A stretch of DNA of 64,000 nucleotides from Bryobacteraceae bacterium. Its GTDB lineage: Bacteria; Acidobacteriota; Terriglobia; Bryobacterales; Bryobacteraceae. Shown in pieces: positions 19,090-31,612 of the stretch. A program made the position numbers and the translations under genes. Each line of letters opens with the position of its first letter. Position 1 is the stretch's first letter. The notes under the pieces were generated by a model. That model was not told the DNA's origin. It was given only the letters and a program-made list of their open reading frames with translations, and made no database searches. The stretch spans positions 124,001 to 188,000 of the forward strand of contig JAHCHE010000007.1 in assembly GCA_026129905.1 (NCBI GenBank). The letters run 5' to 3'.

Positions 19090-20493
19090 TCAAACGGCCG
19101 CGCCGTCCAGCCCGATCCGTTCCAAGCGCTCGAGTTCGGCTTCCTGGCGCGCGTCGAGATACAGCCGGGGCTCGGCCGCGAGGACTTCGCGGACCCGCTC
19201 CTGGGCCGCCTCCTCGAGAGTTCGTGCGCCGCGGGCCTCCCAGGTTGATCTCCGGACGCGGGAGGCCAGGCGGGGACGGCTGAGGGCGCGGCGGTAGTTG
19301 GCGAGCGTGTGCTCGGACGTGAGGAAATCGCGGCCGCTGAGGCCGATCTCCCTAATGGCGTCGAGCGCAAGCGTTTCTTCGTTCACCGGTACGCCTTCGC
19401 GAAAGCGCAGGAAGTAACCGGCCACTTCGTCGTCGGCAACCAGCGCTTCCGGTGACATGGCGAGCGTGGATTCCAGGTTGCCCGCGCCCCAGATCAGGTT
19501 GACGCCGGCCGCGGCGTGCGCCGCCCCGGTCATCGTCTTTTCGAGCGTCGCCTGCGCGTCGGCGGTCATCGCCTCGGTGGACATCCACGCCGCGCAGGGC
19601 AGGCCGTGATAGCGGGCCAGGTCGGCGCCGGCGGCCTGCAGCAGCGCGTTCTCCGGAGCGCCGGTGAGAGCGATGGCGGAGGCCATGTCGATCACGTGCG
19701 CGAACCCGAGGTTGTAGATGCACGGGCGGCCTGGCTCCAGAAGCTGGTTGATCACCAGTCCGCTCAACGCGTCGGCGTCGCCCACCGCGAGGCATCCGGC
19801 CAGAGTCACCGGCGCCGTCGCGCCGCCCAGCGGCTCGGAGTTGATCATCACCGGCGCGCCAAAGCCCGCGGTCTGCTGAAAGACGCCCAGCGCGAGCGAA
19901 GTCCAATGCAGTGGGCTGAGGATGCTGAACCCGGTGCTCACGACGGGCCGTTCGCGGAGACTCGCGCCGTCCAGCAGCGCCTGGGCCATCTCCATCACCA
20001 GCCGCCCGCCGCGCGGCGTGTAGATGCAGGGCCGGAGATGCTTCGCCGTATGGCGGGCCATGATGCGGAAGCCAACAAAATCGCGGCACGCGGGAGGGAC
20101 GTCGGCGATCGACGTTCCCACCATGCCGTGGATGTTGGGGCAGGCATCCACGATGCGCGCCAGTTCCGCCAGGTCGGACGAGTTCAGGTCGGCGCGTTCG
20201 CGCCCGCGGGTGATGTAGAGCGCGTTCCCGGTGAGAACCAGGGTGGGACCTCCAGGGGAGAGTTCCCAAAGGTTGCCCCGGCGGTCGGCGATGCGGGCCT
20301 GCCGCGGCGCCTGCCGGACGGCCCACTCGACAAGCTCCGCCGGCAGGCGGACCACCGAATCCTCGACGACCGCGGCGCCGGCGTCGCGCAGCAGATTCAC
20401 GATCTCGGGCGAATCGACGCGAACGCCCACCGTGTCCAGAATCTCCAGCGCCGCATCGTGAATGCGCCGGCAATCGTTGTCGCTCAGGATCAT
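19090..20493 (-). CDS. Trimethylamine-methyltransferase-family (MttB/MtgB-like) protein without pyrrolysine
   Basis: 467 residues with family features throughout: HDAALEILDTVGVRVDSPE at the N-terminus, NALYITRGRERADLNSSDLA, and IWGAGNLESTLAMSPEALV in the C-terminal half. Members form a TIM barrel and move a methyl group from a quaternary or tertiary amine to a corrinoid protein. There is no internal amber codon, so this is a non-pyrrolysine member like the glycine-betaine-type MtgB. No corrinoid protein or corrinoid:H4folate methyltransferase lies next to it, so its partners must be elsewhere. Two UroD-like proteins, a family that also includes corrinoid methyltransferases, occur at 47.6 and 60 kb. 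Confidence 0.82.
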   Translation of the reverse strand: MILSDNDCRRIHDAALEILDTVGVRVDSPEIVNLLRDAGAAVVEDSVVRLPAELVEWAVRQAPRQARIADRRGNLWELSPGGPTLVLTGNALYITRGRERADLNSSDLAELARIVDACPNIHGMVGTSIADVPPACRDFVGFRIMARHTAKHLRPCIYTPRGGRLVMEMAQALLDGASLRERPVVSTGFSILSPLHWTSLALGVFQQTAGFGAPVMINSEPLGGATAPVTLAGCLAVGDADALSGLVINQLLEPGRPCIYNLGFAHVIDMASAIALTGAPENALLQAAGADLARYHGLPCAAWMSTEAMTADAQATLEKTMTGAAHAAAGVNLIWGAGNLESTLAMSPEALVADDEVAGYFLRFREGVPVNEETLALDAIREIGLSGRDFLTSEHTLANYRRALSRPRLASRVRRSTWEARGARTLEEAAQERVREVLAAEPRLYLDARQEAELERLERIGLDGAAV

Positions 20494-20559
20494 CGCACCT
20501 AAGGATAGTGCACCTGTCGCCGCGCTGTACGGTACAATCGCCCCGGGGAGGATGCGGGA

Positions 20560-21927
20560 TTGCTTTCACGGAGAGGGTGGTTATGGTGGCCGCTGGCGGG
20601 CGCGGCGTCGATTGGCTCGGCCAGGGCGGCGCAGGGCCGGAGCTCGAAGTCGCTTCGGGAGCGGCTGAGGGATGCGGTTGACCGGATGGAAGTGGTCAAC
20701 ACGCACGAACACATCATTCCCGAAGCGGAACGCACGTCGCAGCCGGTGGATTTCTTCACGCTCGCCGGACATTACGCCATCAACGACGTGATTTCCGCCG
20801 GTTTGCCGGCCGAGACGGCCACCCGCGCGGGAATTTCGCCGGTCGAGCGGTTCCAGGCATTCGAGCCCTACTGGAAACACGCACGGTTTACCGGCTATGG
20901 CCAGGCGCTACGGATCGCGATTCGCGACATCTACGGCTTCGACGAGATCTCCGCGGCGACGCTGCCGAAGATCGACGAGGCCATTGCGGCGAAGAACAAG
21001 CCGGGGCTTTACCGGCAGGTGCTGAAGGAACGCGCCAGGATACGCTACTCGGTGCTGGACGACTACTGGAACCCCGCGCCGAAGCCCGCCGACCCGGAGT
21101 TCTTCGTGCTCGCCCGCAAGTTCGACCGCTACGTGATGCCCGGCTCGCGCAAGGGGATCGAGGAGTTGGAGAAGCTGACCGGCGTTTCCATTACATCGCT
21201 GGCCGGGTTGAAACAGGCGATGGAAAAGAGCTTCGAGCAAAGCCTGGAGGCCGGGATGACGACGGTAAAATCCACCATCGCCTACAACCGCGAACTCCGG
21301 TTCGCCGAAGCGGAGGAAGGCGCCGCGGCGAAAGCGTTCGAGGACCTCGCGCAGGGCAACGCGCCGCTGCCCGAGGGTTTTCGAGCGGCCGTGGAAAGGC
21401 CGTTCCGGACGCTGGAAGACCATATGTTTCATCACCTGGTTCGCCTGGCGGAGGCGCACGGCGTCCCCGTGCAGATCCACACCGGAATCCTGGCGGGCAA
21501 CGGCAATTTCGTAACCAACACGAATCCGACCGGCCTGACGAATCTTTTCTTCCTTTATCCCAAGGTAAAATTCGATTTATTTCATATCAGCTATCCGTAT
21601 CAGGGAGAACTCGCCGCCATGGCCAAGCTGTTTCCGAACGTCCACATCGATTTTTGCTGGGCGCACATTATTTCGCCGGCCGTCTCGCGGCGCGCCCTGC
21701 ACGAATTCCTGGAAACCGTCCCCGTCAACAAGATCTTCGGCTACGGCGGAGACTACCGGTACCCCGAACTGAGTTACGCGCACCTGGTGATGGCCCGGCG
21801 CAACATCGTTCAGGTCATGTCGGAAAAAGTGGAGGATGGGTTTTGCTCCGAGGACGAGGCCGTCGCCATCGCGCGGATGCTGCTGGACGAGAACCCGGCG
21901 CGTATGTTTCCAAGAAGGAGGGCATGA
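20560..21927 (+). CDS. Secreted or TAT-type amidohydrolase-family protein
   Basis: 455 residues from TTG. The N-terminus (RRGWLWWPLAGAASIGSARA) resembles a signal peptide with twin Arg. NTHEHIIPE near residue 48 is the first metal motif of amidohydrolases (HxH), and IHTGILAGNG plus FHISYPYQGEL and IDFCWAHIISP carry later His/Asp candidates. The layout resembles uronate-isomerase-like or COG2159 members, so hydrolysis or decarboxylation of a ring or acid substrate is possible. Its stop overlaps the start of the next gene (ATGA), so the two are translationally coupled. Confidence 0.7.
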   Translation: MLSRRGWLWWPLAGAASIGSARAAQGRSSKSLRERLRDAVDRMEVVNTHEHIIPEAERTSQPVDFFTLAGHYAINDVISAGLPAETATRAGISPVERFQAFEPYWKHARFTGYGQALRIAIRDIYGFDEISAATLPKIDEAIAAKNKPGLYRQVLKERARIRYSVLDDYWNPAPKPADPEFFVLARKFDRYVMPGSRKGIEELEKLTGVSITSLAGLKQAMEKSFEQSLEAGMTTVKSTIAYNRELRFAEAEEGAAAKAFEDLAQGNAPLPEGFRAAVERPFRTLEDHMFHHLVRLAEAHGVPVQIHTGILAGNGNFVTNTNPTGLTNLFFLYPKVKFDLFHISYPYQGELAAMAKLFPNVHIDFCWAHIISPAVSRRALHEFLETVPVNKIFGYGGDYRYPELSYAHLVMARRNIVQVMSEKVEDGFCSEDEAVAIARMLLDENPARMFPRRRA

Positions 21928-22988
21928 AAATGGCCGCTTCCCGTGTGGTGTCGCGGCGCGGCCTGCTCCTCGGCGCGCTGGGCGCCGCCCGCGCGGAGGA
22001 ACCGGACCTGTCCCGCTACGAAACGCCGTACAAGCTTGGCAGACTGGCGCTGGCGGCCGACCCGGATCCGACGGCGTTCGATCACCGCGCTGTCGATTGT
22101 CCGTTCGTTTTCCGTTACGGCGGCGAGTTCCGCATGACGTATCTCGGCTTCGACGGAACGGGCTACCAGACGGGTCTCGCCGCGTCGTCCGACCTGGCGA
22201 CCTGGCGCAAACTGGGCTGCATCCTGCGGCGCGATCCGAGTTCGCCCATCACGCGCTACAACGTGGCGCTCAACTGGATCGTGCGGGATTCCGAGCTCCG
22301 GTCTCCGGGAGAACTGAAGAAGGTCAAGGGGCGGTTCCTCGGCGTCTTCCACGCCTATCCGAATCCCGGCTACGAAGAGGGACCGGCGGTGATCGGGCTT
22401 TGCCGCAGCGGCGATCTGATGAAGTGGGACCTGGGCGACATCTGCCTGCGGCCGGAGGATGGCGCGGATTGGGAGCGAGGCGGGTTGTACAAGCCGTGCC
22501 TGGTGGAGCACGACGGCGTCTACTACCTTTTCTACAACGCCAAGACGCGGACATTTCCCAAGTCCGAGGGAGGCGGCTGGCGCGAACAGACGGGAGTCGC
22601 GACGTCCACCGATCTCAAGGCCTGGAAGCGGTTCGAAGGAAATCCCATCGTCAGGAACGGGCCCGCGGGCAGCCCGGATGAGCGGTTCGCCAGCGATCCA
22701 TGCGTCATGCTCGACGGCAAGCGATGGGTGCTGTTCTATTTTGGGCTGGACGCCAAGGGCGTCGCGCGGGACCTGCTGGCTTACGGCGACGATCCGTTTC
22801 ACATGAAGAAGGCGGACCGTATCCTCATCGACGTGGGACCTCCCGGAAGCATCGATTCCACGTACGCGCACAAGCCCTCGGTGATCGAGCACGACGGCGC
22901 GCTCTATCACTTCTACTGCGCCGTCTCCGGCCGCGGGCCCAGTGAAGTGCGCGGAATCTCCTTGGCGCGCTCCCGCCCGTGGGGCTGA
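21924..22988 (+). CDS. Secreted five-bladed beta-propeller glycosidase-like protein
   Basis: 354 residues from the ATG after AAGGAGGGC; this ATG overlaps the TGA of the amidohydrolase. A short TAT-like leader (SRRGLLLGALGAARAEEP) is followed by repeated propeller blades: VFRYGGEFRMTYLGFDG, KPCLVEHDGVYYLFYNAK, DPCVMLDGKRWVLFYFG and KPSVIEHDGALYHFYCAV. This spacing matches GH43/GH130/GH32-like five-bladed propellers acting on beta-linked sugars. The exact family and catalytic acids cannot be fixed by eye. Coupled with the amidohydrolase, it may process one substrate. Confidence 0.68.
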   Translation: MKMAASRVVSRRGLLLGALGAARAEEPDLSRYETPYKLGRLALAADPDPTAFDHRAVDCPFVFRYGGEFRMTYLGFDGTGYQTGLAASSDLATWRKLGCILRRDPSSPITRYNVALNWIVRDSELRSPGELKKVKGRFLGVFHAYPNPGYEEGPAVIGLCRSGDLMKWDLGDICLRPEDGADWERGGLYKPCLVEHDGVYYLFYNAKTRTFPKSEGGGWREQTGVATSTDLKAWKRFEGNPIVRNGPAGSPDERFASDPCVMLDGKRWVLFYFGLDAKGVARDLLAYGDDPFHMKKADRILIDVGPPGSIDSTYAHKPSVIEHDGALYHFYCAVSGRGPSEVRGISLARSRPWG

Positions 22989-23081
22989 GCCGCCGTTGCG
23001 ATTTTCAAAGCTATACTTGTGTGTTTAATGAAAAACGCCGCGCAAACACTCTGTAATCCGCGCGATCCCGCAACCTAACTC

Positions 23082-24047
23082 ATGAGCGCGCTGTGGGCCA
23101 TCACCAGCTTCTTCAATCCGGCGGGATACCGGCGAAGGGTGGAGAACTACCGCGTCTTTCGGGAGCGGCTTCGGGCGCCCTTGATCGCGGTCGAGCTGTC
23201 CTTCACCGGCGCCTTCGCGCTGCGGCCCGGCGACGCGGAAGTCCTCGTCCAACTCGATCGGGGCGACATCCTGTTTCAGAAAGAGCGCCTGCTGAACATC
23301 GCCTTGCGGCATCTGCCGCCCGAGTGCGAGGCGGTCGCCTGGCTCGACTGCGACGTGATCTTCGGTTCGGACGACTGGACGGCAACCACGCTGGAAGCCC
23401 TCGAACGCTTCGCCGTCGCGCAGCCCTTCAGTGAGCGGTACGACCTGGCCCCGGAGGCGCGGCCGGAGGACATCGAGGGCGCCGAAAAACTCTACGACCG
23501 GCTTTCATTGATGGCAACGATCGCCCGCGAGGGGCTGACCGGCGCGGATTTCCGCGAGACGAAGCCGCCCCTGAAAAATCCCGCCTGGGGGTTGGCGTGG
23601 GCCGCGCGACGGGATGTGCTGGACAAGCACGGCCTTTATGATGCGTGTGTGTTCACCAGCGGCGACATAGCTATGTTCTGCGCGGCTGCTGGCGCGCACA
23701 ACGGCGGATTCATGCGGGGCCGGATGAACGAACGCTCGTTCCGGCACTACGCCGAGTGGGCCGGGCCGTTTCATGAAACCGTGCGCGGCAGCGTAGGACA
23801 CGTCGACGGGCGCCTTTATCACCTCTGGCACGGCGGCATCGCGGAGCGAAGGTACGGCCGGTGTCACGAAGAATTACGGGACCTGGGCTTCGATCCCTAC
23901 ACCGACATCGCTATGACGGACCAGGGCGCCTGGCGGTGGTGTACCGACAAACCGGAACTGCACGCGCGCCTGCGAGAGTACTTCCACTCGCGAGAGGAGG
24001 ACGCCGAGCCGTCGTCTAGCGCGGCAGCGAGGCGGGCGCCGGCTTGA
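23082..24047 (+). CDS. GT-A-like glycosyltransferase-type protein, paralogue A
   Basis: 321 residues starting MSALWAITSFFNPAGYRRR. The core AVAWLDCDVIF near residue 90 has the Asp-Cys-Asp arrangement of a DxD metal/nucleotide-sugar site in GT-A enzymes, and VLVQLDRGDILFQKERLLNI precedes it. Further conserved blocks are AWGLAWAARRDVLDKHGLYD and LYHLWHGGIAERRY. It is clearly paralogous to the leftward gene at 28192-29133 along its length. It opens a run of four coupled genes: the next start overlaps its stop as TTGA. Function as a glycosyltransferase is inferred from the fold motif and the neighbouring GT4. Confidence 0.68.
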   Translation: MSALWAITSFFNPAGYRRRVENYRVFRERLRAPLIAVELSFTGAFALRPGDAEVLVQLDRGDILFQKERLLNIALRHLPPECEAVAWLDCDVIFGSDDWTATTLEALERFAVAQPFSERYDLAPEARPEDIEGAEKLYDRLSLMATIAREGLTGADFRETKPPLKNPAWGLAWAARRDVLDKHGLYDACVFTSGDIAMFCAAAGAHNGGFMRGRMNERSFRHYAEWAGPFHETVRGSVGHVDGRLYHLWHGGIAERRYGRCHEELRDLGFDPYTDIAMTDQGAWRWCTDKPELHARLREYFHSREEDAEPSSSAAARRAPA

Positions 24048-25249
24048 CGATCCTGCACCTCGTAGCGAACCGGGTCCTGCCGCATCCCGGCGGACTCCAG
24101 GAGTCCGTGATCCGGATCGGGCGAAGCCTGGCATCGGCCGGCTTTCGGGTGATTGTCTACACGCTCTACCAACCGGCCGAGTACCGGTGCGCCGATCCAT
24201 CGCACCAGGGCCTCCAGGTGCTGCACCTGGGGGGACGGGAGTTGCTGCTGGGGCCTTACCTCGACGGCGGTGCGCCGGAGTTGCTGGCGACGGAGCGGAG
24301 CCGCGTCACGGCTCTGCTGTTGCGGAACGCGATCGAGCGTCGAACCCACAGCGAACCGGACGCTCGCCACGTAGTCATTTCGTTCTACGCCTCCGGAACG
24401 GGCTTCCTGGCGCAGATGGCCGCGGCCAGCCTCCGGCTTCCGCACATTGTTTCGGTCCGCGGCACCGACTTCGAGTTGGACGTGTTTGGCGCGAAACAGC
24501 ACCCGAGACTGCGGGCCGCGATCGATGGCGCCGCACAGGTGATCACCACCAACCGCGAGCAGGCCGATGCGCTATCCGCGATGTTCCACCCGCGGCGGAC
24601 GGTTCGCACTATCCACAATGCGCTGCCGGACGCCGGCGCGCGGCCGTTCTGGAAAACGCCGCCCGTCGAAACGATCCGCTTAATCAGCGACTGCGGATTT
24701 TCCGGAAGGAAAGCCACGCACCTGCTGCTGCGGGCGGCGGCTTCGCTGATGGACCAGGGTTTCGACGCATCATTGACGGTGCTCGGCTCGACGTTCTGGC
24801 TGGAGTCGCCCGCCTATTGGGAAGAGCGCCGGCGAGAGTACGAATCGTCACATCCCGGGCGCTTCTTCTTTCCCGGCCAGGTGAGTCATGAGGAGCTGGA
24901 TCGCCGCCTGCTTTCGTCGCACATCTACTGTTCGGCCAGCCTGGCCGAGGGCTCCTCCATGAGCCGCATCCGGGCGCTGACGTTGGGCATTCCGATGGTG
25001 ACCACCGCCAACGGGGGCATGCCGGAACTGGCCGCCGGCTGCCGCCATGTGCGGCTGTGCCCCGCCGGTGATTGGCAAGCGCTGGCAGCCGAAACGGAGG
25101 CCGCGGCGGGGGAGATTCGCGCCGGGACGCTGGAGCCGGACGAGCGCTGCGTCGCGCGATGGCGCGAGCATTTCCGGGTCGAGCGCGAGCGGGACGAGTG
25201 GGTCCGCGCGATTGAGCTGGTCCTGCGCGAGGAAGCCGCGCGAGTATGA
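24044..25249 (+). CDS. GT4-family glycosyltransferase with altered EX7E motif
   Basis: 401 residues. N-terminal HLVANRVLPHPGGLQESV is the acceptor loop of GT-B enzymes; IVSVRGTDFELDVFG and GFSGRKATHLLLRAAASL belong to the linker and donor domains. In GT4 enzymes the donor site carries Glu-x7-Glu; here the block is AEGSSMSRIRALTLG, so the second Glu is replaced by Arg, which is unusual. The start TTG overlaps the upstream stop, and the next gene starts inside the end of this one (ATGAG), so the cluster is translated as a unit. Confidence 0.8.
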   Translation: MTILHLVANRVLPHPGGLQESVIRIGRSLASAGFRVIVYTLYQPAEYRCADPSHQGLQVLHLGGRELLLGPYLDGGAPELLATERSRVTALLLRNAIERRTHSEPDARHVVISFYASGTGFLAQMAAASLRLPHIVSVRGTDFELDVFGAKQHPRLRAAIDGAAQVITTNREQADALSAMFHPRRTVRTIHNALPDAGARPFWKTPPVETIRLISDCGFSGRKATHLLLRAAASLMDQGFDASLTVLGSTFWLESPAYWEERRREYESSHPGRFFFPGQVSHEELDRRLLSSHIYCSASLAEGSSMSRIRALTLGIPMVTTANGGMPELAAGCRHVRLCPAGDWQALAAETEAAAGEIRAGTLEPDERCVARWREHFRVERERDEWVRAIELVLREEAARV

Positions 25250-26874
25250 GATTCGACAAAATCTGGTCCCGGTCGCGCGGACTGATCAGCCTGGCGCGCC
25301 ACATTCCCCCGTTCCTGGCCGAGCCGCTCTCGGCCGCACAGGCGGAAGCCACCACCGCCAAAGGCGTGGTCGAGCGCGAGGGGCGGTTCCTGTCCAAGCT
25401 GGATCGCGCCGTCTACGCGAATCCCCGCAGCCCCTACCGAAAGCTCCTCGAGGCGAGCGGCTGCGAATTTGGCGACGTCGAACGCCTGGTGGCCGCCGAC
25501 GGTCTGGACGGCGCGCTGGCAAAACTCGCCGCCGCGGGCGTGTACCTGACATTCGAAGAATTCAAGGGACGAGTCCCCACGGTACGCGCCAACCGAACCA
25601 TTGAATTTGCGCCGGACGACATGAACGATCCCACGTTCCGCGCGGTGACCAATTCCCGGACGAGCGGTACCAGCGGCTCGCCGATCCAGTTCGGGTGGAG
25701 CTTCGCGCTGAATGCCCAGTGGGCGACGCACTGGTGCCTGTTCTTCGCCGCGAATGGGATCCTTGGCAATCCGCTGATTTTCTGGACGCCCGGCAACGCA
25801 GGCGCTATCGGCCCGCAACTGGCGTGCGCGAAATTCGGCCAGCGGGTGGACGGGTGGTTTGTGTCGCAGGAGATGACGCTGGCGGCCGACCGTCTGTACG
25901 CCTGGTCGCGGCACTGGATCTGCCGGCGGCTCGCTGGTCTGCCTGGCACGCGCAGCGTCGCGTATCACGACACGGCGCCGGTGCTTGAAGCGGTGGCGGG
26001 TTTTCTGCGGGATGAGAGAGGCGTATCGGTGAATACGACGCCAAGCGCGGCGGTCCGGCTCAGCCTTGCTGCCCGGGAGCGCGGCGCGGACCTCAGCGGA
26101 CTCGTCTTCCTGCTGGGCGCCGAACCGTTGACCCCCGCGCGGCGCGAAACCATCGAGGCGTGCGGAGCGCGGGCCACGCCGCTATACGGCTCGACGGAGG
26201 CGGTCTGGACCGGGGGACAATGTCCGCACCCCAGGAACCATGACGAGGTCCACGTTCTGCGCGACCTGCACGCGGTGATCAACGCTCCGGCGGGCGCTTC
26301 CACGGAGTCCGAAGCGCCGCGTCTGCTGTTCACGTCGCTGGCGCCGGTGACCTCGAAAGTGATCCTCAATACCGATATTGGAGACAGCGGCGTGGTCGAA
26401 TACCGCCGCTGCGATTGCCTTTACGATCGCGCGGGCTGCCGGCAGACCATCCACACGATCCGCAGCGCGGACAAGCTCACCGAGTTCGGCGTCACTATCT
26501 GGGTGGCCGACGTGTACGACGTGCTGGAGAACGCGCTGCCGCGGCGCTATCGGGCAGCGGCCGGCGATTTTCAGCTCATCGAAACTCGGACGCCGGCTGG
26601 CCTGCCCCGATACGTGCTCCTGGCGCATCCGCGCGCGGTGGAGATCGACGAGCAAACGCTGGCGAAAGTCTTTCTGGAGGAACTGGGGCGGCGGAAGACG
26701 TACTATGGCTTCATGACGTCGATCTGGGAACGCGAGAAGGTCCTGGAAGTCCGCCGGCAGGCGCCGATCGCCACCAGCCGCGGCAAGCTGTTGCCGTTCC
26801 TGCGGTTGACGGACCCGGCGCAGCTCGAGCCCGCACTGGCGCGGTCCGGCCGCGAGAGCCGGCGCATCACATGA
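25246..26874 (+). CDS. CapK/PaaK-like adenylate-forming enzyme
   Basis: 542 residues. SRTSGTSGSPIQFG near residue 140 is the Ser/Thr/Gly-rich ATP loop of acyl-adenylate enzymes, and ATPLYGSTEAVWTGGQ near residue 310 is the A5-type motif. The overall layout follows the phenylacetate-CoA ligase/CapK/coenzyme-F390-synthetase branch. CRRCDCLYDRAGC-like cysteines (C in EYRRCDCLYDRAGCRQ) occur near residue 395. CapK relatives appear in capsule loci, where they are thought to activate a carboxylate for transfer to glycan. Its start overlaps the GT4 stop by four bases and a MurF-like ligase follows. Confidence 0.78.
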   Translation: MRFDKIWSRSRGLISLARHIPPFLAEPLSAAQAEATTAKGVVEREGRFLSKLDRAVYANPRSPYRKLLEASGCEFGDVERLVAADGLDGALAKLAAAGVYLTFEEFKGRVPTVRANRTIEFAPDDMNDPTFRAVTNSRTSGTSGSPIQFGWSFALNAQWATHWCLFFAANGILGNPLIFWTPGNAGAIGPQLACAKFGQRVDGWFVSQEMTLAADRLYAWSRHWICRRLAGLPGTRSVAYHDTAPVLEAVAGFLRDERGVSVNTTPSAAVRLSLAARERGADLSGLVFLLGAEPLTPARRETIEACGARATPLYGSTEAVWTGGQCPHPRNHDEVHVLRDLHAVINAPAGASTESEAPRLLFTSLAPVTSKVILNTDIGDSGVVEYRRCDCLYDRAGCRQTIHTIRSADKLTEFGVTIWVADVYDVLENALPRRYRAAAGDFQLIETRTPAGLPRYVLLAHPRAVEIDEQTLAKVFLEELGRRKTYYGFMTSIWEREKVLEVRRQAPIATSRGKLLPFLRLTDPAQLEPALARSGRESRRIT

Positions 26875-26901
26875 GGCATTCAATTAGGCCGAGGGAACGC
26901 C

Positions 26902-28185
26902 ATGCGCGCGCGGCTGCGTGAGATCCCCGCGTTACTTCGAACGCCGGAGGGCCGGCGCAAGATCCGGGGCGGCGCGGAGCACCTGGCGCGGCCGGTCACC
27001 CAACCGATCGCAGGACTGTACCGGCGAACGGTACTGCGGCGGACGAGGATCGTCGCGGTGGTCGGCTCGTTCGGCAAGACGACCACTCGGCGAATCGTCG
27101 CCGCTGCGCTGGGTGACCTCGAGCGCGACCATCGAAAGCGTCCCGCCTCCGCCATACTCGCCATTCCCGCCGGGCATCCCTACGCGGTTTTCGAGATCGG
27201 AATCGACAGCAAGGGGCAGATGGCCCCGATGGCGAAAATGCTCGCTCCCGATATCGCGGTGGTCACCACGGTGGGCAGCGAGCACCTGCGTTCAATGGGA
27301 AGCCTCGAGACCACCCGCCACGAGAAGGCCTACATGGTGCGCGCGCTGCGGCCGGGCGGCCTCGCCGTGCTGAACGGCGACGATCCGAACGTGATGTGGA
27401 TGGCCTCCCAGACCCGGGAGAACGTGATCACGTTCGGCATGGGTGACGGCAACGACGTGCGGGCCTCCGGCGTGACGCTGGATTGGCCGCACGGTTTGAC
27501 GTTCGCGATCCATGCGCGCGGCCAGACCCGCCGGCTGCGGACGCGCTTCGTCGGGCGCCACTTCGTGCTCTCGTTTCTGGCCGCCGCCGCGGCGGCGACG
27601 GAACAAGGCATCGGGCTCGACGAATTCGCGAGCCGCGTGGAAGCCGTTTCTCCCGTGCACGGCCGCCTGCACATCCGCCGGCTGGATAATGGCGCCGTGC
27701 TGTTGTGCGACTACCTGAAATCGACGCACGAGACGATGCACGCTGCGTTGGACGCGCTGGCCGAAATCCCGGCGCGGCGGCGGATCGTAGTGTTTGGCGA
27801 CGTCTCCGAGCCTCGAGGAACGCCCGCGGAAGTCTACGGCGGTCTGGGCGAACGCATCGGCCGCATTGCGCAGAAGGCGATCTTTTTGGGTTGGCGCTTC
27901 CGCCGCTACCGTGCTGGGGCGGTGCGTGGCGGGATGCCGAACAGCGCGGTCGTCGACGCCGGCGAGTCCGTGGCGGCGGCGACGGCAGCGCTTCGCGGGG
28001 ACTTGGGCCCGGGTGACGTCGTGCTGATCAAAGGCCGCGCCGAACAGCGCCTGGACCGCATCGCGCTGGCGCTGGAGGGCCGGCGGGTGGCTTGCGCGCT
28101 GGAGACCTGTTGGCTGAAGGAGCCCCGGTGCAACGAGTGCTCGATGCTCGAGCGCGGCTGGGAAGGGCTGAAACCGGCGACGTGA
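26902..28185 (+). CDS. MurF-like Mur ligase lacking the UDP-substrate domain
   Basis: 427 residues. The ATP loop VVGSFGKTTTRRI appears already near residue 55, whereas true MurF has it after an N-terminal UDP-sugar domain of about 80-100 residues. VTTVGSEHLRSMGSLE and VLNGDDPNVMWM are the central-domain motifs; DYLKSTHETMHAALDAL replaces the MurF motif DSYNANPxSMxAAL. The C-terminal tail has three cysteines (ETCWLKEPRCNECSMLE) that could bind zinc. Mur ligases form amide bonds between a carboxylate and an amino acid. The missing domain and the location with two GTs and a CapK-like enzyme argue for a glycan or capsule substrate instead of peptidoglycan. Confidence 0.78.
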   Translation: MRARLREIPALLRTPEGRRKIRGGAEHLARPVTQPIAGLYRRTVLRRTRIVAVVGSFGKTTTRRIVAAALGDLERDHRKRPASAILAIPAGHPYAVFEIGIDSKGQMAPMAKMLAPDIAVVTTVGSEHLRSMGSLETTRHEKAYMVRALRPGGLAVLNGDDPNVMWMASQTRENVITFGMGDGNDVRASGVTLDWPHGLTFAIHARGQTRRLRTRFVGRHFVLSFLAAAAAATEQGIGLDEFASRVEAVSPVHGRLHIRRLDNGAVLLCDYLKSTHETMHAALDALAEIPARRRIVVFGDVSEPRGTPAEVYGGLGERIGRIAQKAIFLGWRFRRYRAGAVRGGMPNSAVVDAGESVAAATAALRGDLGPGDVVLIKGRAEQRLDRIALALEGRRVACALETCWLKEPRCNECSMLERGWEGLKPAT

Positions 28186-28191
28186 GGCCGG

Positions 28192-29133
28192 TCACGCGCT
28201 GACGGCGCACACCAGGTACTCGCCGTCCTCCTGCCGGCATGCGAAGTATTCCTTCACCATCCGGTGCATGTCGGGCTTCGGTGAGCTCCACCGCCAGCAG
28301 CCCTCGGCGTCCAGCGCAATGTCGGCCGCCGGGTCGTACCCGCACGAGCTAAGGATCTGGAGGCGCTCCTGGTAACGCCGGCGTTCCAGGTTGCCGTGCC
28401 AGAGGTGGAAGATGTCGCCCTCGATGTAGCCGATGCCGTTCACCGCGGCGCGGAATCGCTCGGCCCACCGGCGATAGTCGTCGGCATGGGCCGCGGTCAT
28501 GCCGTGCCGGGCGATCACTTCTTCGGCGCGTCCCTTGGCAGCGTGCGCCAGCAGGCTGTCGCCGCCTCCGACGACGTTTCGGTCGTAGAGCCCGTGCCCG
28601 GCGAGCGTCTCACGGCGCGCCGCCCACGCGTGCCCCCGCTTGAACACCCGTTCGGAGCCGTTGGCGCCCGCGCCTCCCGGGCCGTTCAACCCGTTGGCAA
28701 ACGCGTAACCTAACGAGTCGTGGCGAAGAATCGAAGCCTCGCGGCTGATCGAGGCGGCATCGGGAGCAAGATGGTAGACCGATCGATACAACTGACACAC
28801 GCCCGCGCGTTCCAACTCGCGCATCGCGGCCCACGCCCAATCCGAACGGCTGAAAACCACGTCGCAATCGAGCCACGCCACGTACCCGCACTCGTCGGGC
28901 AGATGATCGGCGGCGATGTTCAGCAAACGCTCCTTCTGCCACATCACGTCGCCGCCGCGGAGTTGCACAAGGATGTCGGCGTCGCCCGGACCGAGCTCGA
29001 AGCGGCCACTATGCGACAATTCGACCGCCGCGAGGGGCACGGCCAGCCCGTTACGGAACTCCCGGTAATTGGGCAGTTTCCTTCGGTATCCGGCGGGATT
29101 GAAATACGACGTGATGGCCCAAAGCCGGCTCAC
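28192..29133 (-). CDS. GT-A-like glycosyltransferase-type protein, paralogue B
   Basis: 313 residues from GTG with a GGAGGA ribosome site. It matches paralogue A block by block: LWAITSYFNPAGYRRKL, DILVQLRGGDVMWQKERLLN, YVAWLDCDVVF, HAWAARRETLAGHGLYD and IFHLWHGNLERRRYQERL. It is encoded on the opposite strand, with its end only six bases past the stop of the Mur-ligase-like gene, so the two paralogues bound the cluster as an inverted pair. Similarity is moderate, suggesting an old duplication with different acceptors. A hairpin lies just before its ribosome site. Confidence 0.68.
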   Translation of the reverse strand: MSRLWAITSYFNPAGYRRKLPNYREFRNGLAVPLAAVELSHSGRFELGPGDADILVQLRGGDVMWQKERLLNIAADHLPDECGYVAWLDCDVVFSRSDWAWAAMRELERAGVCQLYRSVYHLAPDAASISREASILRHDSLGYAFANGLNGPGGAGANGSERVFKRGHAWAARRETLAGHGLYDRNVVGGGDSLLAHAAKGRAEEVIARHGMTAAHADDYRRWAERFRAAVNGIGYIEGDIFHLWHGNLERRRYQERLQILSSCGYDPAADIALDAEGCWRWSSPKPDMHRMVKEYFACRQEDGEYLVCAVSA

Positions 29134-29149
29134 GATCCTCCTCCCTAGA

Positions 29150-29175
29150 CCGAAGTTCCCCCCCAGGAACTTCGG
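29150..29175 (-). promoter_or_regulatory. Perfect hairpin in the leader of the GT-A paralogue B gene
   Basis: CCGAAGTTCC and GGAACTTCGG form a perfect ten-pair stem with a six-base loop. It ends 17 bases before the GTG start, next to the ribosome site. No U-tract follows on either strand, so it is more likely a leader structure than a terminator, although it could slow transcripts arriving from the alginate-lyase-like gene. Confidence 0.5.
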
Positions 29176-29293
29176 CCCAAATCAGGCAATTATAGCAGCA
29201 CCGAACGCTCAGGTCCTTTCACGGCGCCATAAAACAATTCTACGGTCTTCTGTTTTATTCGTAAAGGCCCCTCGCGAGATTTTGCCGGATTTT

Positions 29294-30457
29294 CTATCGC
29301 CGGCCAAGCCGCACAACCAGGTCGATAAACTGGACCCATGGCGAGTTCGCCCGGGGAAGCCGGTCGTACGCGGCTAGCAACGCCCCGGATTCCAGGCCGA
29401 CCCCCGCCAGTCCCGGGAACACAAAGCCGGCCGCGTCGAAGGGATGGGTTTGCGGCTTGCGCCAGTTCGGAGGATCGGCTACGTATGGCGCCAGGTAGTA
29501 GCAAGCTTTCGCCACGCCGGCTCCGCCCGGAGTCTCGAAACGCCACAGGTCCACGCCATCGTTCTCGGCGAGCCGGCAGATGACCGCGAACCCGTCCAGG
29601 TTCATCGCGGAATAGCTCAGTGAAATCGGCCGCGCTTCTTCCTGCGGACAAGAGCCGTCGGGCCGGATCTGCACGGGCACGAGGTAATCGCGAAAATGAT
29701 CCCAAGCCATCCGTTTGATAGCGGAATTCCCGCTGAAAATGGCGAAAGCCGCCGCCTGCGCCGTCCACCACGTGGCGTGGTTGTTTCTGGCGGCCATTTC
29801 GGCGCGGCCCTTCGCGCTGCCGGTAATCCACTCGAGATAATCGGCAAACCAGCGCCGCACCGCCCGTAGCAGGCCCGCGTCCGCGCCGCCGGCGGCTTCG
29901 AGCAGCAGGATGCCCTGCGCGGCGTGGATCAGCAGGACCGTCTCGATGATTCCCCTGGCTCGTCCGGAACTGACGCCGCGCACCGCCTGGCCGAATTCCA
30001 GGTGCGGGTTCATGCGGGTCGAAGGCGCGACGAACCAGGCATCCAGCAGCGCCGCGGCATGGTTCCCGCACTCCGGCCGGTCAAGAAAGCAGGCGCCGGC
30101 GCCCAGCGCGAGCAGGGCGTCGCACATCTTCTTAAGGTCCCGCGCGTTCGCCAGGAAACGGTTCGGGTTGGGTTCTCCGTCCCGGCGGATGTACGGGCCG
30201 TCCGGATTCGCCGGGTCGGGCCACCAGTAGTACCCTTCGCTGAAGTAGTCGTTCACCCGCAGATCCGCTTCGGGTTGGCTGGGGCGATAGTAGGTCACGC
30301 TCCACGGACCCGCTCGCAGGGCGTCGTCAACCAGCGCATGTAGGCCCCCTGCGGCCGCGCCTCCCTGTTGCACGGCTTCCCGGATCCGGTGCGCCTGCTC
30401 GCTCGAGGTCACCAGCAGCGTCTCTCTCGCTTGCGCCGCGGCGTCGTTGCGCTCCAC
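29294..30457 (-). CDS. Alginate-lyase-family (PL5-like) protein
   Basis: 387 residues. YYWWPDPANPDGPYIRRDG near residue 75, MNPHLEFGQAVRG, ARNNHATWWTAQAAAFAIF and SLSYSAMNLDGF are the hallmark blocks of the alginate_lyase Pfam family (PF05426); the Asn-Asn-His and Tyr are the usual catalytic region. Unlike most members there is no signal peptide, so the enzyme may be cytoplasmic or the start may be misplaced. It might release unsaturated uronic acid from a polymer made by, or taken up near, the adjoining glycan cluster. Confidence 0.75.
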   Translation of the reverse strand: MERNDAAAQARETLLVTSSEQAHRIREAVQQGGAAAGGLHALVDDALRAGPWSVTYYRPSQPEADLRVNDYFSEGYYWWPDPANPDGPYIRRDGEPNPNRFLANARDLKKMCDALLALGAGACFLDRPECGNHAAALLDAWFVAPSTRMNPHLEFGQAVRGVSSGRARGIIETVLLIHAAQGILLLEAAGGADAGLLRAVRRWFADYLEWITGSAKGRAEMAARNNHATWWTAQAAAFAIFSGNSAIKRMAWDHFRDYLVPVQIRPDGSCPQEEARPISLSYSAMNLDGFAVICRLAENDGVDLWRFETPGGAGVAKACYYLAPYVADPPNWRKPQTHPFDAAGFVFPGLAGVGLESGALLAAYDRLPRANSPWVQFIDLVVRLGRR

Positions 30458-30508
30458 ACTACCTTTCCTATCATGAGAAGGTTGCCGTAAGCCGGGTCGA
30501 GAGAAAAG

Positions 30509-31612
30509 ATGGCGGAACCGGTACTTTCGAGAAAAGCGCTGAATCGAGCGCTATTGGCCCGCCAGATGCTGCTGGCGCGGAAAAAGACAACCGCGGCGCT
30601 CGCCATCGGTCGGCTCGCCGGCCTGCAAGCGCAGCAGGCGAAGCCGCCGTTCGTCGGCCTCTGGTCGAGGCTGGAAGGCTTCCGGCGCGAGGACCTGGCG
30701 CGGGCGATCGAACAACGGGAGGTGGTGCGCGCCACGCTGATGCGCGCAACGCTCCATCTCTTGCCTGCGGCGGACTACCCGGTTTTTCGGAGCGGCCTTC
30801 AGCCGGCCCTAACCGCGGCCATGCGCTCCGCCTTGCGCGACCGCGCCAGCGGGTTGGACGTGGAAGCGATCGCCGCGGCGGCGCGCGCCTGTTTTGCCGA
30901 ACGGCCGCGGACGTTTGCCGAACTGCGAGTCGAATTGCTCAAGCGCTTTCCGGAAGCCGACGAGCGCGCCATGGGCTACCTGGTTCGCACGCACCTTCCG
31001 CTGATCGTCGTGCCGGGCGGCAACCACTGGGGCTATGCCGCGGACGCGAAGTTCGCCGATGCCTCGGCGTGGCTCGGCCGCCCCGTCGAAGCGGCGGCGG
31101 ATCCAGGCGCCCTGGTGTTGCGCTACCTGGCGGCGTTCGGCCCGGCGGCGGCCGCGGATGCGCAGGCATGGTCCGGCTTGGCGAAATTGCAGCCGGATTT
31201 CGAACGCCTGCGTCCCAGGCTCGCTGTGTTTCGAGACGAGCGGGGAAGAGAACTGTTCGATCTGCCGGACGCGCCGCTGCCGGACGAGAATACGCCGGCG
31301 CCCGCGCGGCTGTTGCCGGGCTTCGACAATCTCGTGCTGGCGCACAAGGACCGGACGCGGGTGATCTCTGACGAGCAAAGGTCCCGCGTGGTGACGAAGA
31401 ACCTCCAGGTGCTGCCGACATTCCTGGTGGATGGCTTCGTCGCTGGAACCTGGGCCGTGGAGCGCCGCAAGCAATCGGCGACCCTGACCCTCACGGCGTT
31501 CGCGGCCTTGCCGGCGCCGGCAAAGAGTCGGCTTACGGAGGAAGCCGGGAAACTCGTCCGTTTTGTGGAGGACGACGCGAACGAGTTCAACGTACGGTTC
31601 AATGCCGCCTGA
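30509..31612 (+). CDS. AlkZ/YcaQ-like winged-helix DNA glycosylase
   Basis: 367 residues of the HTH_42 family (PF06224). The N-terminal block IGRLAGLQAQQAKPPFVGLW contains Gln-x-Gln, the catalytic motif of AlkZ-type glycosylases that unhook bulky or cross-linked adducts (YcaQ has Gln-x-Asp). RATLMRATLHLLPAADYP and LLPGFDNLVLAHKDRTRV are other family blocks; the C-terminal VDGFVAGTWAVERR strand is typical. In producers of DNA-alkylating natural products it is a self-resistance gene, but free-standing copies occur widely. It precedes the DUF721-gatC-gatA genes. Confidence 0.82.
   Translation: MAEPVLSRKALNRALLARQMLLARKKTTAALAIGRLAGLQAQQAKPPFVGLWSRLEGFRREDLARAIEQREVVRATLMRATLHLLPAADYPVFRSGLQPALTAAMRSALRDRASGLDVEAIAAAARACFAERPRTFAELRVELLKRFPEADERAMGYLVRTHLPLIVVPGGNHWGYAADAKFADASAWLGRPVEAAADPGALVLRYLAAFGPAAAADAQAWSGLAKLQPDFERLRPRLAVFRDERGRELFDLPDAPLPDENTPAPARLLPGFDNLVLAHKDRTRVISDEQRSRVVTKNLQVLPTFLVDGFVAGTWAVERRKQSATLTLTAFAALPAPAKSRLTEEAGKLVRFVEDDANEFNVRFNAA

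Follow-up and report, generated by a model that had tools for sequence, protein, structure and literature searches.

What might a bacterium make with three glycosyltransferase genes and two carboxylate-activating ligase genes standing in one short run? The question is raised by positions 23,082 to 29,133 of a 64,000-nucleotide stretch of DNA (the window) from Bryobacteraceae bacterium, a member of the Acidobacteriota (assembly GCA_026129905.1, here the home genome; contig JAHCHE010000007.1, positions 124,001 to 188,000). The presence of three glycosyltransferases and two carboxylate-activating ligases in one run points to a decorated glycoconjugate, and the best explanation that we can offer is a small cassette for glycoconjugate decoration, with an envelope or exported glycan as its product. 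We give this reading an even chance. The cluster is made up of five genes:

23082..24047, + strand: predicted GT-A-fold glycosyltransferase, copy 1, 321 amino acids, of a family without a library model (open reading frame, fold model, invariant residues)
24044..25249, + strand: GT4-type glycosyltransferase, 401 amino acids, whose TTG start overlaps the copy 1 stop (Pfam)
25246..26874, + strand: CapK/PaaK-like adenylate-forming (ANL) enzyme, 542 amino acids (NCBIfam, PDB match, motifs)
26902..28185, + strand: MurF-derived ligase, 427 amino acids, lacking the N-terminal UDP-binding domain and ending in a four-cysteine tail (Pfam, NCBIfam, alignment)
28192..29133, - strand: predicted GT-A-fold glycosyltransferase, copy 2, 313 amino acids, convergent with the Mur gene (identity to copy 1, tree)

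The original prediction, made from the letters and open reading frames of this DNA, had described four rightward genes joined by overlaps and short gaps and closed by a leftward second GT-A-like gene. Open reading frames and junction sequences agree with it exactly. The first two genes overlap by 4 nucleotides (TTGA, 24044-24047), as do the GT4 and CapK genes (ATGAG, 25246-25250); 27 nucleotides separate the CapK stop from the Mur start, and 6 lie between the converging stops of the Mur gene and GT-A copy 2 (28192-29133). The shared blocks AWLDCDVIF and AWLDCDVVF, among others, were likewise found in the two GT-A-like copies.

Neither GT-A-like protein matched a model in Pfam (E 0.1), NCBIfam, PHROGs or PADLOC; the CAZy GT2 model (Pfam Glycos_transf_2) was matched by neither at E 0.1, and copy 1 had no sequence match among PDB chains. 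An AlphaFold model of copy 1 was built from 59 aligned sequences, comprising the window proteins and the related loci found here, and reached a mean pLDDT of 92.2 and a pTM of 0.92. Among solved structures it was closest to the GT-A enzyme 6p61_B (Z 14.6, root-mean-square deviation 2.6, 174 aligned residues), followed by chondroitin polymerase 2z87_B (Z 14.4) and AvpGT (Z 14.2). The predicted viral proteins A0A6G6XPM6 (TM 0.80) and A0A5K0U7Q5 of Yasminevirus (TM 0.77) fitted better than the solved structures listed. Across the 59 aligned rows ten residues never vary, among them D89 and D91 (of WLDCD), D195, H250 and R304; by analogy with the GT-A fold class, D89, D91, D195 and H250 could serve as metal ligands and base. 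The earlier guess of a GT-A fold is upheld by the copy 1 model and by these metal-site-like Asp and His residues, and the evidence supports the assignment of both proteins as GT-A-fold glycosyltransferases with an intact metal-site-like motif, copy 1 being the one that was modelled.

The fold (Z about 13 to 14.6) is shared with chondroitin polymerase K4CP, polypeptide GalNAc-transferases, TarP and AvpGT, enzymes of the GT2/GT27 kind. These enzymes and the cluster family have in common two features of that fold class, an Asp-x-Asp motif and, further downstream, an invariant His. In contrast, identity over the aligned parts is only about 9 to 19%, the Pfam, NCBIfam and PHROG models do not reach the cluster proteins, and the cluster family has its own conserved HLWHG and C-terminal R.ED motifs. 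A family with a confident model and no match in four family libraries marks a gap in the annotation of sugar enzymes.

The two copies are 45% identical. In a maximum-likelihood tree copy 1 grouped with copy b of genome G032 (94/82), and copy 2 with G111 and with a further copy at C25 of the home genome (98/89 and 92/80); in this tree the bootstrap had not settled, 19 of the 34 inner branches were open and G111 formed a long branch. Its 37 rows were 21 cellular, plasmid or phage sequences and 16 of the 80 viral loci described below; G409, a match in two pieces, was left out, and no row was dropped for a stop. Paired GT-A copies were also found in a Verrucomicrobia metagenome-assembled genome (MAG) and in G032, where they flank a methyltransferase and two genes that look GT2-like by sequence. 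Since the tree does not join the two window copies as sisters and pairs occur elsewhere, the pair is likely to be old. A recent local inverted duplication was rejected as the simple reading on the same tree. As candidates for long inverted repeats bounding the cluster, only weak matches inside coding regions were seen between the two copies, the longest of 44 nucleotides at 70%. The phrase "inverted paralogues" of the original prediction thus holds for the geometry (opposite strands, 45% identity) but not for sister copies.

The GT4 gene encodes Glyco_transf_4 and Glycos_transf_1 domains (best Pfam E 6e-14). The CapK-like protein had no match in Pfam; the NCBIfam PaaK model reached E 3e-10 with 39 bits, where its cut-off is 700, and the best PDB sequence match was a phenylacetate-coenzyme A (CoA) ligase (E 6e-4). 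It shares a TSGTSG-type motif, a GD motif and a C-terminal lysine motif with the PaaK-like phenylacetate-CoA ligases of the ANL superfamily, but is about 100 residues longer than the matched PaaK chains, has no Pfam match and has no known CoA ligase activity. Residues G141, G144 and K514 are invariant in all seven homologues. Because the TSGTSG-type motif is present and K514 is invariant, the protein is probably an active adenylate-forming enzyme, with a chemistry that would be that of the ANL family, whose motifs are intact. The CapK label given earlier can therefore be kept, as that of an ANL enzyme of putative activity with its catalytic-lysine-type motif. Nine CapK-like matches were present in the home genome (8.6 Mb), eight of them at E 3e-60 or better.

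In the Mur ligase Pfam recognised an M domain (E 2e-23) and a C domain (E 5e-12). Its best family match was MurF, with an alignment that begins at position 73 of the murF model, and 54 residues precede its P-loop; in nine MurF-motif proteins of other genomes the P-loop lies at 107 to 134. The late start of the alignment and the short segment before the P-loop indicate that the N-terminal UDP-binding domain is absent. Residues G55, S56, G58, K59, T61, E98, H128 and K142 are invariant in 16 of 16 rows of the group to which the protein belongs, and the protein keeps the core residues that line up with the home genome's canonical MurF, E98, H128 and K142 among them; the earlier label of a Mur ligase is sound as regards ligase core, P-loop and aligned core residues. 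The middle and C-terminal Mur domains, the P-loop and the aligned Glu, His and Lys are common to MurF and the window protein. Unlike MurF, the latter lacks the UDP-binding domain, carries CDYLKSTHET in place of the home MurF motif DDCYNANP (mostly RDD- or RDE-type in its relatives), and ends in an extra four-cysteine tail.

This tail, C-x4-C-x6-C-x2-C in the window protein and C-x3,4-C-x4-6-C-x2-C in general, was present in 14 of the 16 rows; the G024 protein has the first two cysteines only, and in G215 one of the tandem pair lacks all four. One more tailed protein was found in G037. The tail was absent from all nine canonical MurF proteins of other genomes (DxYNxxP motif) and from the home MurF, whose gene lies at C70 amid genes that are dcw-like by their order. 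The window gene stands outside that cluster and lacks a DxYNxNP-type motif. In addition to its canonical MurF the home genome encodes eight tailed Mur ligases, counting that of the window, an expansion like that of its CapK-like genes. The closest relatives of the window protein were the tandem genes of G215 (44-47% identity). On these alignments the protein is best placed in a MurF-derived group, new here, that lacks the UDP-binding domain and is mostly cysteine-tailed. The tail may bind zinc. CapB/PgsB and MurT are also Mur-type ligases without the usual UDP-binding domain, and MurT carries a Cys4 zinc ribbon with its motif inside the middle domain; the cysteines of the window protein are at the C-terminus instead. 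No CapB/PgsB or MurT model was among its NCBIfam matches. Proteins of G186, G233, G303 and G317 were rejected as members, since their motif, the place of their P-loop and the absence of a tail mark them as canonical MurF, and a Shinella match was rejected for its dcw-like gene surroundings and lack of a tail. Outside the home phylum the only accepted member was on a Gemmobacter plasmid.

If these five genes belong together, sugars would be transferred from nucleotide-sugar donors onto an acceptor by the GT4 enzyme and at least one of the two GT-A-fold enzymes. The CapK-like enzyme would turn a carboxylic acid into its adenylate and hand it on to a carrier, to the glycan or to the glycan's lipid, and the MurF-derived ligase would then use ATP to link a carboxylate of this product with an amine such as an amino acid. 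This last step is suggested by the Mur fold and the conserved core; the ligase would be unable to bind UDP-MurNAc-peptide in the usual way because the UDP-binding domain is missing. We infer that all five genes serve one pathway, that the steps run in this order and that the product ends up outside the cell or attached to the envelope. A glycan with amide-linked amino acids, as originally proposed, is plausible chemistry. If the substrate of the Mur ligase were a sugar acid, the tailed group would carry the amide chemistry of the cell wall over to other glycans.

The original prediction had proposed, as a test of itself, that the four families be looked for as neighbours in other acidobacterial genomes. 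Cut-offs were set after near-relative scans for CapK and Mur, and 396 genomes of the phylum were searched. CapK was found at E 1e-70 or better in nine genomes and Mur at 1e-42 or better in ten; four of the latter were canonical MurF, which leaves six with the home genome included. The GT-A family was present in five, again with the home genome (G409 in two pieces only), and the home genome alone was on more than one of the three lists. No CapK match at 1e-40 was obtained in 12 other GT-A-bearing genomes, with an alignment for which there was no positive control. Mur matches were present in seven of these 12; all five inspected were canonical (L288-L291, and L020 for G032), G409 and G009 being outside the inspection. 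In a separate set of 41 near relatives, CapK and a Mur of the tailed group are both present in G004 and in G037, but on different contigs; those of G037 are mostly short, so that the two genes may still be neighbours there. The full set was therefore seen nowhere but in the home window, and the expectation of a shared neighbourhood largely failed: in the genomes sampled the GT-A/GT4/CapK/Mur set is not a conserved locus. No description of such a cluster was found in the open-licence papers searched.

A GT-A/GT4/CapK subset recurs once, rearranged and without Mur, at C25 of the home genome, where CapK and GT4 genes point leftward with a rightward GT-A gene between them (identity to the window 54% for CapK, 48% for GT4 and 43-45% for GT-A). 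At C34 of the same genome CapK is followed by GT4. The other home CapK genes examined (L075, L081, L082, L083) had no such partners within 20-kb stretches.

The GT-A family itself is widely scattered. It was found in four of the 41 near relatives (home included; G022 is a weak match), and a scan of named genomes gave seven loci, in Verrucomicrobia, Bauldia, Paraburkholderia, Rhodocyclales, Omnitrophica and a Planctomycetaceae MAG, where two contigs carry it. Among deposited phages one, Xanthomonas phage XaC1, has the gene, as do four plasmid records. In the megaplasmids of Cupriavidus (L106) and Burkholderia contaminans (L107) and in phage XaC1 (L189) the gene is annotated as a hypothetical protein, mostly amid hypothetical genes. 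Among viral contigs, 139 of 213 pattern-matched stretches encode a GT-A relative, and 80 of the 139 were kept for later analysis; at least one of the contigs, L154, also has genes resembling a T4-type major capsid protein and a prohead protease (recognised by eye). Judged by these homologies, the family is carried by viruses in the environment, by megaplasmids and by unrelated bacteria. No CapK relative was found among 36 viral pattern matches to the CapK alignment and only two weak Mur relatives among 27 to the Mur alignment, on which counts phage carriage of the whole cluster was rejected.

A CapK/PaaK-like gene lies within about 1.5 kb of the GT-A gene in four of 18 cellular and plasmid loci (the window, C25, G111 and the Rhodocyclales MAG). 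The local CapK/PaaK profiles were built partly from the proteins of these four loci, which match by construction; the count is therefore descriptive, and the information lies in the 14 loci without such a gene. In the Rhodocyclales MAG the PaaK-like protein has a Pfam AMP-binding match (E 3e-5) and stands with a methyltransferase and the GT-A gene, and that of G111 was recognised by likeness to it. In the Verrucomicrobia MAG the two GT-A copies are divergent and adjoined by A-PCP proteins of the nonribosomal peptide synthetase (NRPS) type. Among the viral loci a PaaK-like gene adjoins GT-A in L115 and L154, an ATP-grasp gene accompanies it in L108, L110 and L111, and a radical SAM gene in L112-L114, whose identical match figures may represent one virus. 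A second GT-A gene was found in L121, and tblastn added L116. A reverse search from PaaK gave 62 viral loci on 44 contigs, of which four contigs have GT-A directly downstream, L115 and L154 being two of them. The L154 protein had no match in 50,697 deposited phage records; the G111 PaaK had four there, with at most 42% covered. In some high-GC loci (L071, L091, L103) the choice of open reading frame was wrong, so that some neighbours without a Pfam family may be false frames; these three and part of L210 were re-read from the list of open reading frames. The nearness of GT-A to acid-activating enzymes, repeated in unrelated hosts though confined to a minority of loci, leads to a testable chemical prediction.

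Several observations weigh against a glycan-decorating cassette. No flippase, polymerase, sugar-phosphate or initiating transferase or exporter was found in the nine Pfam-scanned proteins at 19.1-30.5 kb, so that the cassette does not appear self-contained. None of 13 other Mur-group loci matched CapK, PaaK, GT4 or GT-A profiles, although the GT4 profile is not fully sensitive and missed an annotated GT4 beside the Gemmobacter plasmid Mur; among the loci profiled, Mur accompanies the other three families in the window only. Some Mur-group genes also stand beside genes of no glycan type, an aconitase and a hydroxylase at C45 and a transporter permease at C43. In a nine-profile scan of 98 loci (80 viral and 18 other, the window excluded) 83 had a match to GT-A only, and the GT-A gene stands alone at C12. 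By raw counts, uncorrected for background, the pairing of GT-A with acid-activating enzymes appears recurrent but a minority, and the ligases are of different families. In favour of the decorated glycan stand the translational overlaps, the fold with its invariant residues, the kept ligase motifs, the recurrence of the GT-A/GT4/CapK subset at C25 and of CapK with GT4 at C34, the acid-activating enzymes near GT-A in other loci and the glycan-type neighbourhoods of some Mur relatives; the lack of conservation of the four-gene set remains on the other side. These neighbourhoods include C40, with a formyltransferase, the Gemmobacter plasmid, with a formyltransferase, two GT25, a GT4 and a pyruvyl transferase, and the loci L213, with ATPgrasp_ST (a sugar-transfer ATP-grasp), and L214, with GT41. 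A tandem pair of Mur-group genes at C31 adjoins an asparagine-synthase-type gene.

The same enzymes could instead form a natural-product pathway, in which a small molecule, an acyl- or aryl-amide built by CapK and Mur, is glycosylated by the three glycosyltransferases to give a soluble metabolite rather than an envelope glycan. The A-PCP proteins beside the Verrucomicrobia GT-A pair and the PaaK-like enzyme, methyltransferase and GT-A of the Rhodocyclales MAG are what such a pathway would lead one to expect, and no polymer-export gene was among the nine scanned neighbours; yet the nine window proteins include no NRPS, polyketide synthase, transporter or resistance gene either, and the polysaccharide-type surroundings of the Mur relatives on the Gemmobacter plasmid and in L213 and L214 speak for a glycan. 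We regard a natural product as somewhat unlikely. A narrower pathway, of GT-A, GT4 and CapK alone, would leave Mur and copy 2 as chance neighbours or a later insertion acting elsewhere. Here the recurrence of the subset without Mur on C25 is to the point, together with the 27-nucleotide gap that sets Mur off without overlap coupling and the grouping of copy 2 with the C25 copy and G111 rather than with copy 1 (92/80). Against this, Mur is close and in the same direction, copy 2 ends 6 nucleotides away, and GT-A copies are paired in G032 and the Verrucomicrobia MAG as well; we consider the three-gene pathway unlikely.

Compared with the decorated-glycan cassette, a broader proposal must be called unlikely: GT-A and a carboxylate-activating ligase might form a mobile two-part module of bacteria and large environmental phages, producing acyl- or aminoacyl-glycans for the surfaces of cells or virions. 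The cysteine-tailed, perhaps zinc-binding Mur of the window would then extend the ligase partner and bring peptidoglycan-type amide chemistry to a non-peptidoglycan sugar. A defence system was rejected, as none of the five cluster proteins matched a PADLOC anti-phage defence model.

Some further loci show related arrangements. RimK-like ATP-grasp enzymes are another type of carboxylate-amine ligase, and in L108:5995-8683 and L110:5998-8675 a protein with two ATP-grasp-type (RimK-like) matches is encoded immediately after the GT-A gene. Radical SAM, GT4-type and GT-A genes occur together in L112:6001-10292, on a 277-kb viral contig, and in L086:6325-10936 of Paraburkholderia fynbosensis. On the viral contigs L226-L286 (e.g., L227:4246-6284), as in L154:923-2393, a small methyltransferase-like open reading frame (IIGDGxLN, by eye) abuts the PaaK-like ligase; it was upstream of the PaaK-like gene in most of the 14 viral loci with neighbours printed, sometimes with tail- or virion-type genes near.

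Two features lie 5' of GT-A copy 2:

29237..29265, - strand: promoter-like match (consensus match only)
29294..30457, - strand, as copy 2: alginate-lyase-family protein (PF05426, E 1.6e-74)

Three promoter-like sites were found in 22700-30700, against 0.6 expected. It is possible that the alginate-lyase-family protein is a lyase acting on the glycan of the cluster. The left flank (19090-22988) encodes an MttB-family methyltransferase (- strand), an amidohydrolase with weak likeness to uronate isomerase (+ strand) and a GH43/GH32-like protein (+ strand).

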